From NCBI GenBank assembly GCA_036262055.1, contig DATAJP010000003.1:434001-498000 (forward strand): a stretch of 64,000 bases of DNA, read 5' to 3'. Under the pieces are notes generated by a model. It did not search any database and was not told the origin of the DNA. It worked only from the letters and a program-made list of their open reading frames with translations. Below are positions 3,119 through 6,090 of this stretch, one piece after another. This DNA is from Ignavibacteria bacterium (lineage in GTDB: Bacteria > Bacteroidota > Ignavibacteria > Tepidaquicellales > Tepidaquicellaceae). The number at the start of each line of letters is the position of its first letter. Positions within the stretch are counted from its first letter, which is position 1. Made by a program: the position numbers and the translations under genes.

Positions 3119-4348
3119 TTAAATAAAAGATTCAACGCTTTCCTGAGACAAAATTCGTCTCGGATTATCTCTCGGGACTACCCTTCTCATAAAATCAAAG
3201 AATAGCTTGGTGGTAGTACAGCTTGGACAGATGCCTATATCCCCATCCCAAATTTCATCACAAAATGCTTCAGGAAGGTTTTTGTAAATGATTTCGGTAG
3301 CGCGTTCGTGAACGTCCCACATCCAGTTGGTATCGGGTGGTGTCATTCCTTCGTATGCGGTTCCGACCATAGGAATGAACGGACTCATTATCGGAAATAC
3401 ACCGTTTGAGGATAAATAATCGACTCCTTCTAAAAATGATTCCGCAGGTTCAAGCCCGACTACGAAAGAAGTCAATGCTCGTGCAGGTTTAAGCAAATCT
3501 CTTGCTTCGAATAATGATTGAATCCATCTCTCACGTCCGACTCTTCGGGTTTTTCCGGGACAAATTTCCTGAAATAATTTCTCATTCCATATTTCAAGAT
3601 TAAATGCAATCGAGCTTATTCCCAGACTGCAAAGATATTCGGTTTCTTCTTTGTTTCGTGTTGCTGTTATTGCAGTAACAATCGGAAAGTTCTTATTTTT
3701 TAAAAGCGGTTTTATTCTTTCAAGTATGTTCGGCAGATTTCCTAATCCATCATCTTTTGCTGCGCCTGCTGTCATGGCAAGATGTGTGCAAACAGGATTA
3801 TTAATTACTGCTTCCTCGACAACATCATAAATATCATCAGCTTCTTTGCGGGTAACGACATGATGCCTGTTTCTTTGTCTTGCAGGAACTATGTTGCAGA
3901 ACTTGCATTGCTCATCTTTTGCAAAATAGTTGCAAGCGTTATCAAAACACACACGCAAGCCGCAGTCGCCTCTCAGCGAAGCAACTTTTTTCATCGACTC
4001 ACCGCTTCTGGTATTCATATCATAAAAATGCGGACGGACAGGCCATTTAACTTCACAAAGCTCTTCTTTGCCGTTAAGCAAAATTAAAGTATCGCCGCTT
4101 TTATGAACGGTATATTTAGACTCGGGGTTATAACGCACATCGGCATAAATATCATAAGGCAATAGCATATCGTTCGGCAAAGGTCTTGAACCGTCACCTG
4201 AACCTTTGTGAGTTACCGGTGTCATTTCAAAAACCCAGAAAACTTTTTCAAGTCCGCCCTGTCCGACAGATGTCATCGCCTCATCGGTGATTTTCAATCC
4301 GTCTATTAAAAGCTCTGTCTTTAATTTTATCGCCTGGTCTAAAGTCAT
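3119..4348 (-). CDS. Radical SAM protein, second of a tandem paralogous pair
   Basis: A 409-residue protein that appears to be a radical SAM enzyme (reductive cleavage of S-adenosylmethionine at a 4Fe-4S cluster). The cysteines C129, C139, C148 and C151 form C-x9-C-x8-C-x2-C, ending in CKFCNIVP; this differs from the textbook CxxxCxxC. The same spacing is kept in the upstream paralogue. Downstream there are TIM-barrel-like blocks, including LTSFVVGLEPAESFLEGV and a late CPSC pair near residue 375. A shared N-terminal block of the form IKLKxxLLIDGLxxxD opens both proteins. The ATG is one base after the paralogue's stop, so they form one operon and may form a heterodimer. No specific family or substrate is recognised. 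No SPASM domain is evident. Confidence 0.75.
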   Translation of the reverse strand: MTLDQAIKLKTELLIDGLKITDEAMTSVGQGGLEKVFWVFEMTPVTHKGSGDGSRPLPNDMLLPYDIYADVRYNPESKYTVHKSGDTLILLNGKEELCEVKWPVRPHFYDMNTRSGESMKKVASLRGDCGLRVCFDNACNYFAKDEQCKFCNIVPARQRNRHHVVTRKEADDIYDVVEEAVINNPVCTHLAMTAGAAKDDGLGNLPNILERIKPLLKNKNFPIVTAITATRNKEETEYLCSLGISSIAFNLEIWNEKLFQEICPGKTRRVGRERWIQSLFEARDLLKPARALTSFVVGLEPAESFLEGVDYLSSNGVFPIMSPFIPMVGTAYEGMTPPDTNWMWDVHERATEIIYKNLPEAFCDEIWDGDIGICPSCTTTKLFFDFMRRVVPRDNPRRILSQESVESFI

Positions 4349-4349
4349 T

Positions 4350-5579
4350 CTAATTCTCTGCTGTTACTTTTTCTTCTTTAACGATTGGTACTTGTGACAA
4401 ATGGCATCCTGCGTGATAATTCGTAAGTCCTGCGTTTTCTTTTACTATGTCAAATAAAAATCCACCTGTGAAACACTCTGCGCAAATCGGGGCATCGTTC
4501 TGCCAATATTCTTCTGTTCCCATGAACGGAAGCTTCTTTAAAATAACATCAGCAATCTCAAGCTTGGTATCCATCATCCATTTATAAGTCGGAGGTCTGA
4601 AACCTTCGAATTGGCTTCCTGTCTCCGGAGAAAACGGCACGACAATCGGGATGATTCCCCTGTCAGCACACCAGTTCACACCTTCGAGCAATGTTCTTTT
4701 CGGTTCAAGCCCGGCGATCATTGCAGAAAAGACTCTGCCTTCGCCGAAATATTTCACAGCTTCAATTAATGACTGTTCCCATAATTCTCTTCCAATATAT
4801 GCATCTTTTCCCGGAACGATTGCCTTCCAGTAACCTTTATCGAACACCTCAAAATTAAATGATACTGAGTGCATTCCATGGTCATATAAAGCTTTTACGT
4901 CAGTAATATTTTTTGTAGGTGAAATCGTGAATAAAATCTTTGTGCGGTTATTATGTCCGTCGAATGGAAATCTGTTTGAAATCTCCTCGAGAATCTGAAT
5001 CGTTCCTCCAAGTCCGCTTTTATCTGCAGGAGTCCCGCGTGTTAAAATCGACTTAGGGTCAGGATGATATTTCTTTGCTTCTTCTATTACATCGACAATC
5101 TGTCTTGCGTTCTTATAAGCATTAGTAATATTTTCTTCGGGATAAAAATCCTGTGACGGAGTTAAGTTGCAGAAACGGCAAGCCATGTCGGTTCTGAAAT
5201 AATCACAGAAATAATTCCATGTAAAATTCAAATTACACGTTCCGTTATATACAACTATGTCGCTGAACAAACGGCCGTCTTTAGTAATCTTTCTTGCAAA
5301 CGGAGGCAAACCGATAAAATCTGCAAAGCAAACTATATTGCCGACTCTATCCTGAACTGCAAGCGCATCGTTGATAACGCGAAGTCTGAAATTTGCTTCG
5401 TTGTTTTCTCTTATCTGCACGTGAACTTCCTGCGGAAGCTTAAGCTCGGCAGGCAAAAACTTGTTTGCTCTGTCTTGCTCCCAGCCCTTTTCTTTAACCA
5501 AATCAGCGCGAAGGTCTTTTAATCTAAGACCGTCAATCAGCAAATCGCATTTAAGCTTAATTAAATCTTTTCTGTCCAT
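4350..5579 (-). CDS. Radical SAM protein, first of a tandem paralogous pair
   Basis: A 409-residue paralogue of the following gene, of identical length. Candidate cluster ligands are C115, C125, C134 and C137, again C-x9-C-x8-C-x2-C and ending in CRFCNLTPSQ. Shared downstream blocks include ARxxWEQSLIEA-like and SAMIAGLEPKRTLLEGVNW segments, PFSPETGSQFEGF, and a C-terminal CAEC near residue 373 that might hold an auxiliary cluster. The ATG opens the operon. Upstream on the same strand, about 150 bases away and beyond a terminator hairpin, lies a gene for a repeated-peptide protein. A maturation role for these enzymes is possible but not shown. Confidence 0.75.
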   Translation of the reverse strand: MDRKDLIKLKCDLLIDGLRLKDLRADLVKEKGWEQDRANKFLPAELKLPQEVHVQIRENNEANFRLRVINDALAVQDRVGNIVCFADFIGLPPFARKITKDGRLFSDIVVYNGTCNLNFTWNYFCDYFRTDMACRFCNLTPSQDFYPEENITNAYKNARQIVDVIEEAKKYHPDPKSILTRGTPADKSGLGGTIQILEEISNRFPFDGHNNRTKILFTISPTKNITDVKALYDHGMHSVSFNFEVFDKGYWKAIVPGKDAYIGRELWEQSLIEAVKYFGEGRVFSAMIAGLEPKRTLLEGVNWCADRGIIPIVVPFSPETGSQFEGFRPPTYKWMMDTKLEIADVILKKLPFMGTEEYWQNDAPICAECFTGGFLFDIVKENAGLTNYHAGCHLSQVPIVKEEKVTAEN

Positions 5580-5637: not shown

Positions 5638-5667
5638 TTTTATAAAAATTGATTTTCAAAGTGAAGC

Positions 5668-5706
5668 TAAAAAGCCCTTGAATTAAAATTAATCCAGGGG
5701 CTTTTT
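5668..5706 (-). terminator. Terminator hairpin after the repeated-peptide gene
   Basis: The arms aaaaagccc (5669-5677) and gggcttttt (5697-5705), with partial pairing in the interior, are flanked by A and T runs. It lies about 20 bases after the stop of the repeated-peptide gene. On that strand it reads as a GC stem followed by TTTTT. It separates that gene from the radical SAM pair, so the three are either separate transcripts or joined only by read-through. Confidence 0.75.
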
Positions 5707-5726
5707 AAAAAAGAATGTTTTAACAA

Positions 5727-5993
5727 TTACTTCCACGAACCAGCCGGCGGAAAAATTGAGTGTGATTTCTCATTCGCACAGTCCCAGCTGCCTGCCGGAG
5801 GGAATATTGAATGTGATTTCTCACTTGCATTATTCCAGCTACCTGCCGGTGGAAAGATTGAATGTGATTTCTCGCTCGCTGAATCCCAGCTGCCTGCAGG
5901 AGGAAATATTGAATGTGATTTTTCATTCACTTCGTTATTCCAGCTTCCTGCCGGTGGAAAAATTGTGTGTGAAGTTGTTTTAATGTTATCCAT
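5727..5993 (-). CDS. Small protein of five SHSIFPPAGSW repeats
   Basis: From ATG at 5993 the product is 88 residues; an in-frame TTG at 6047 would give 106. After a short head (MDNIKTT) it consists of five units, SHTIFPPAGSW once and SHSIFPPAGSW four times, separated by variable linkers NNEVNEK, DSASEK, NNASEK and DCANEK, ending in W-K-stop. The unit is 17 residues (51 bases), the first 18. Between copies the Ile, Phe, Pro, Ala and Gly codons vary at third positions, and one Ser changes from AGC to TCG. Only one core residue changes (S to T). That pattern shows selection on the peptide. There is no signal peptide or membrane segment. No known family is recognised. The layout resembles a multi-core peptide precursor, possibly modified by the downstream radical SAM proteins; this is inference. 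Confidence 0.7.
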   Translation of the reverse strand: MDNIKTTSHTIFPPAGSWNNEVNEKSHSIFPPAGSWDSASEKSHSIFPPAGSWNNASEKSHSIFPPAGSWDCANEKSHSIFPPAGSWK

Positions 5994-6090
5994 TATTAAA
6001 TCATGATTTAACAGCTTAAAATTAAAAGAATAATTAAAAACATTCAATTCTAAATTAAATTAATATAATGTAAAATTTTTGCTCCATTTC

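Follow-up and report, generated by a model that had tools for sequence, protein, structure and literature searches.

A repeat peptide encoded beside two variant radical-SAM enzymes in Ignavibacteria: a putative multi-core modification system

Many of the known radical-SAM peptide maturases came to light through a SPASM domain or an RRE that binds the leader. In the TvgA/TvgB system one radical-SAM enzyme modifies a repeat peptide composed of TVGG units, unit by unit (PMC9062424). The auxiliary cluster of LipS2 is ligated by C85, C276 and C279, with the CxxC motif at +230 from the last cysteine of the radical-SAM motif (PMC9585515).

Here we describe a window of 64,000 nucleotides from an Ignavibacteria bacterium (GCA_036262055.1, contig DATAJP010000003.1, positions 434,001 to 498,000) that encodes a peptide with five repeated cores, followed by two radical-SAM genes (Table 1). 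An earlier note on the same DNA is borne out as to selection, the age of the repeats and the multi-core nature of the peptide; it had missed the two downstream radical-SAM genes.

Table 1. Positions of the precursor gene, its cores, the hairpin and the enzyme genes in the window.
Feature	Position	Strand	Description
Multi-core precursor peptide gene	5727..5993	(-)	88 aa, MDNIKTTSHTIFPPAGSW...GSWK; no Pfam/NCBIfam family
Core 1, SHTIFPPAGSW	5940..5972	(-)	Thr at position 3, same in all orthologues
Core 2, SHSIFPPAGSW	5886..5918	(-)	
Core 3, SHSIFPPAGSW	5835..5867	(-)	
Core 4, SHSIFPPAGSW	5784..5816	(-)	
Core 5, SHSIFPPAGSW	5733..5765	(-)	Followed by one Lys and TAA
Terminator-like hairpin	5667..5708	(-)	Between precursor stop and rSAM_A; RNAfold
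rSAM_A	4350..5579	(-)	Variant radical-SAM enzyme, 409 aa; NF045502 E 1.2e-82, 277.7 bits; model pLDDT 88
rSAM_B	3119..4348	(-)	Paralogue of rSAM_A (~30% identity), 409 aa; NF045502 E 1.4e-94, 317 bits; model pLDDT 88

The precursor peptide, its orthologues and selection on its cores

The full translation of the precursor (minus strand, 5727-5993) is MDNIKTTSHTIFPPAGSWNNEVNEKSHSIFPPAGSWDSASEKSHSIFPPAGSWNNASEKSHSIFPPAGSWDCANEKSHSIFPPAGSWK. The five repeat units and their synonymous pattern were found as the earlier note had described them, the sole amino-acid difference between the cores being Thr/Ser at position 3 of core 1. The repeat period is 17 residues (18 once), each inter-core linker terminates in E-K, and only seven residues lie ahead of core 1 and one after core 5. 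The gene had previously been drawn up to 6047; we moved the start from the TTG at 6047 (106 aa) to the ATG at 5993 (88 aa), because the orthologues align from the ATG and their N-terminus is M-x-[EDNK]-[VI]-K throughout. The peptide matched no family in Pfam or NCBIfam, no solved structure of a relative was found and no paper on the core string was retrieved. ORFs in other frames and on the plus strand over the repeats were rejected as by-products of the repetition.

In a search of 59 genomes the precursor gene was present in the window's own genome and in 11 of 58 relatives, with E values from 2e-45 to 1e-19; a twelfth match of the peptide search, in G008 (E 0.008), was spurious and was left out. 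The peptide-bearing genomes belong to two families (f1 and f2) of one order. Their peptides share the core and differ in linkers and copy number, with four to six cores per fully read gene, as had been predicted for relatives of this genome. A chance ORF is excluded by the orthologues with the same core in 11 other genomes, and a pseudogene by the open frame in every fully read orthologue (the gene of G021 contains a run of N). The fully read set consists of 11 genes with 48 cores and 37 inter-core linkers. SH[ST]IFPPAGSW was exact in 43 of the 48 cores, and the five deviating cores differ by one residue each, either Ser-10 to Asn, Lys or Thr, or Ala-8 to Ser. Across the orthologues position 3 is always Thr in the first core and Ser in the other cores. 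All 37 linkers end in E-K, preceded by variable residues. Each core thus has an invariant Lys before it, but core 1 is preceded by K-x-x and not by E-K, so that in all orthologues its Lys stands two residues further off than at the other cores.

Within the 11 fully read genes the cores had a pS of 0.563 and a pN of 0.037 (pooled pN/pS 0.066) and the linkers a pS of 0.484 and a pN of 0.264 (pooled pN/pS 0.55), values that are descriptive since within-gene pairs are not independent. The low pN and high pS of the cores in comparison to the linkers indicate that the cores are old copies under purifying selection, which was also the claim of the earlier note. The cores have diverged at many synonymous positions (within-gene pS 0.56), which excludes a recent tandem duplication, again as had been proposed; only the repeats of G022 look partly homogenised. 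The precursor of that genome (L020 5090-5353) has four identical E-N-A-G linkers and a core pS of 0.29, pointing to an apparent recent expansion or homogenisation there.

When 84,980 species genomes were scanned for the exact words SHTIFPPA and EKSHSIFP, only the relatives already found were recovered, labelled Ignavibacteria, Bacteroidetes or Chlorobiota. A phage or plasmid origin was rejected, with no match in viral contigs, plasmids or phages. We found no paper on such a system in Ignavibacteria and no earlier description of a repeat peptide with a paired radical-SAM system.

The two radical-SAM enzymes and their association with the peptide

The gene order peptide, rSAM_A, rSAM_B was kept in every locus with enough contig, and in the window all three genes lie on the same strand with the enzymes downstream. 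Some genomes have extra genes between rSAM_A and rSAM_B, spanning up to ~3.4 kb (G006). As the flanking genes vary among loci, the conserved unit comprises three genes, and no protease, transporter/exporter, regulator or immunity gene was conserved with them in the compared loci. In three loci (L020, L024 and L026, of G022, G016 and G001) rSAM_A is directly followed by the gene of a related protein (~385-395 aa) that apparently carries a signal peptide; it is absent from some other loci.

Among the 59 genomes, orthologues of rSAM_A (identity 66-78%) were present in the window's own genome, in 10 of the 11 peptide-bearing relatives and in none of the peptide-less genomes. The sole peptide-bearing genome without rSAM_A, G024, is 67% complete and its peptide lies at a contig end. 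This co-occurrence (Fisher p 4e-11, uncorrected for phylogeny) shows a functional link between the peptide and the enzymes but does not by itself make the peptide their substrate. No further orthologues of rSAM_A were found among 294 genomes of the class, and four distant matches (23-27% identity) were of another type. Presence is patchy within genera (G022 has the genes and G013 does not; G038 has them and the remaining genus-17 genomes do not), and therefore the genes appear to come and go together by repeated joint gain or loss. In the A/B tree the window's rSAM_A clusters with f2 genomes (98/99), whereas the SecA tree separates f1 and f2 fully (100/100), a conflict which suggests that rSAM_A may have been transferred horizontally between the families. 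For rSAM_B the A/B tree gave no resolved grouping.

Both enzymes exceed the curated cut-off of NCBIfam NF045502 variant_rSAM (125 bits; scores in Table 1) and score near the cut-off of Pfam Radical_SAM (PF04055). The CX8CX2C motif is invariant in 31 aligned sequences (A, B and other NF045502 relatives), and corresponds to C125-x8-C134-x2-C137 in rSAM_A and C139-x8-C148-x2-C151 in rSAM_B. Three extra cysteines (C115, C366 and C369 in rSAM_A; C129, C374 and C377 in rSAM_B) are invariant in A and B and missing from ten other aligned NF045502 relatives. The last two form a CxxC, located at +229 (A) or +223 (B) from the final Cys of the radical-SAM motif; by this spacing, which resembles that of the LipS2 auxiliary-cluster ligands, the three are candidate cluster ligands. 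AlphaFold models of A and B matched LipA, HydE, BioB, MqnE, NifB and others at Z ~15-18, the closest folds being LipA, HydE and BioB, with MqnE and PylB at similar Z. The models thus predict a BioB/LipA-like radical-SAM barrel and do not narrow the assignment further. When a profile built from the 31 sequences was compared with the PDB, it matched biotin synthases of B. obeum and V. parvula (E 8e-6 and 9e-5). The three-Cys motif, in its variant CX8CX2C form, together with the TIM-barrel fold of the models places both proteins in the radical SAM superfamily. They fall far under the cut-off of the LipS2 profile NF053743 (270 bits), with 26.3 bits for rSAM_B and no match for rSAM_A, and thus outside that family. 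They are also placed outside the SPASM/twitch maturases, as Pfam and NCBIfam searches up to E 1 returned no SPASM domain, and no RRE family was matched by the Pfam and NCBIfam HMMs, which RREs can escape. Because neither domain was detected at the sensitivity used, searches based on SPASM or RRE likely miss the present system.

Elsewhere in the Bacteroidota genomes have up to 12 variant_rSAM genes (L050, L052-L056). At L050 1910-16759 (G192) seven of them lie within 15 kb beside NifH- and NifDK-like genes, and other loci with several variant_rSAM genes have ABC transporters nearby.

The hairpin between the precursor stop and rSAM_A has an equivalent at the same gap in all 11 loci examined with RNAfold; the stem sequences vary among genomes and the position is kept. 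A strict test (uninterrupted stem of >=7 bp, >=3 G-C pairs and a T-rich tail) was passed by 10 of the 11 loci, and none of 300 mononucleotide shuffles was as good. The window's own hairpin, whose long stem contains a 1x1 mismatch and is followed by a tail of five Ts, passes neither this strict test nor a separate scan, yet folds clearly. A promoter scan gave sites no more numerous than in shuffles. If the hairpin acts as a partial terminator, it would raise the ratio of peptide to enzymes.

Proposed modification of the cores and alternative readings

Building on the observed repeats, selection, synteny, co-occurrence, predicted fold and cysteine pattern, we consider it probable that the 88-aa peptide is a leaderless, multi-core RiPP-like substrate, made in excess, of which every core is modified by rSAM_A and rSAM_B. 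In keeping with the definition of a RiPP, a ribosomal precursor is encoded beside putative modifying enzymes, judging from synteny and co-occurrence, and these would act on the peptide. The multi-core precursor proposed earlier is supported, with the peptide as the presumed substrate. As to expression ratio, processing and chemistry, we infer the following. Partial read-through of the terminator-like hairpin would leave the peptide in excess of the enzymes, which would act on each SH[ST]IFPPAGSW unit and, as only seven residues precede core 1, would recognise the core itself. Radical chemistry would take place on each core, in the simplest case with each paralogue performing one of two consecutive steps or modifying a site of its own. 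An unlinked protease may then free the modified units at the invariant Lys ahead of each core, and such a Lys-directed cut would yield mainly 17-residue SHSIFPPAGSWxxxxEK units; alternatively, the modified units may remain as a chain. Cutting at E-K, as suggested in the earlier note, would be one possibility; the conserved cluster encodes no protease and K-x-x instead of E-K precedes core 1, although the Lys itself is invariant.

Several points stand against this explanation. Among the conserved genes there is none for a protease, an exporter or immunity, Pfam and NCBIfam gave no recognisable RRE or SPASM, and two families share a nearly invariant core. The cores of most antibiotic RiPPs are not near-invariant, unlike those of the present peptide, for which the role of a cofactor or conserved signal would be a better fit than that of an antibiotic whose cores diversify under selection. 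With its core fixed, the system is predicted to yield one conserved product. Chemistry of the sactipeptide or ranthipeptide type, with ordinary Cys-derived thioethers, is excluded, since none of the 48 cores of the 11 fully read genes contains a donor Cys.

In a narrower version of the same explanation each core would become a small intracellular redox or metal-binding cofactor, the repeats providing several copies per translation. We give this a rather low chance: the core is near-invariant across families and an exporter or immunity gene is absent from the conserved cluster, as in the PQQ and mycofactocin pathways, but no dedicated user enzyme or extra maturation gene is conserved nearby, and the known examples of peptide-derived cofactors have one core and SPASM enzymes. 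As for the chemistry, A and B might, like LipS1/LipS2, sacrifice an auxiliary iron-sulfur cluster and place its sulfur on unactivated carbons of the core. The three cysteines common to A and B and missing in the ten other relatives, the CxxC position close to the +230 of LipS2 (PMC9585515), the weak LipS2 match of rSAM_B, the nearest folds (LipA, HydE, BioB) and the Cys-free cores are all consistent with sulfur insertion. It is nevertheless unlikely in our judgement, given that the third Cys precedes the radical-SAM motif instead of following it, that non-sulfur chemistry uses the same folds (HydE, MqnE and PylB, at similar Z) and that the CxxC may instead bind a cluster for electron transfer or a metal with a structural role. 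Doubtful, too, is a combined proposal in which two paralogous CX8CX2C enzymes of the BioB/LipS-like branch, each with an auxiliary cluster, would introduce sulfur (or else a new cross-link) in the Cys-free units in a leaderless manner, the near-invariant product being a cofactor or signal; this would be the first peptide-maturing pathway based on that branch.

The repeat protein could instead be a scaffold or regulator of both enzymes, whose product would then be some unrelated small molecule. Since many NF045502 relatives have no repeat peptide beside them, the family as a whole probably does not act on such peptides; fixed cores with variable linkers and copy number, however, fit a repeated substrate better, and we regard a scaffold as quite unlikely. 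The close match in occurrence between enzymes and peptide makes a repeat ligand or binding protein, the other suggestion of the earlier note, less likely. It is very improbable that the pair stands in for lipoyl synthase, with the repeat serving as a minimal lipoyl carrier and E-K providing the acceptor Lys. The enzymes do have LipS2-like features, and 11 of the 12 system-bearing genomes lack a LipA over the cut-off and all but one have GcvH. However, LipA is also missing in 17 relatives without the system, and A/B is therefore not a general stand-in for LipA; moreover, the distance of the Lys differs between core 1 and the other cores. In the window's own family f1 (G000-G026) most genomes have gcvH and no LipA over the curated cut-off.

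Comparison with known systems

A and B have the CX8CX2C motif of NF045502 variant_rSAM and score well above its cut-off, whereas the aligned relatives in other Bacteroidota have neither the three extra cysteines nor an adjoining repeat peptide, and no repeat peptides were seen next to other NF045502 genes of the phylum. For this widespread and uncharacterised family the system, with one short peptide and two enzymes, is a compact test case. Multi-core RiPPs, for example the multi-core microviridins, likewise have several cores per precursor, but their enzymes belong to another superfamily and are leader-guided, neither of which was found here (PMC5934393).

The LipS1/LipS2 pair also consists of two BioB-like radical-SAM proteins with a peptidyl substrate, as proposed for A and B, and the auxiliary cluster of LipS2 is ligated by one Cys and a late CxxC, a pattern similar to the cysteines read from the A and B sequences. 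It differs in its CX3CX2C motif, in its substrate, the octanoyl-Lys of lipoyl proteins, and in having no repeat peptide (PMC9585515). In the TVG pathway of Halomonas the unit is TVGG, the single enzyme belongs to another radical-SAM subgroup, and the cluster has an oxidase and peptidase/transporters, in contrast to the present conserved unit without peptidase or export genes. As here, however, a repeat peptide lies next to a radical-SAM gene and successive repeats are acted on, as we suppose for the present cores (PMC9062424). TvgA/TvgB is the nearest precedent in logic.
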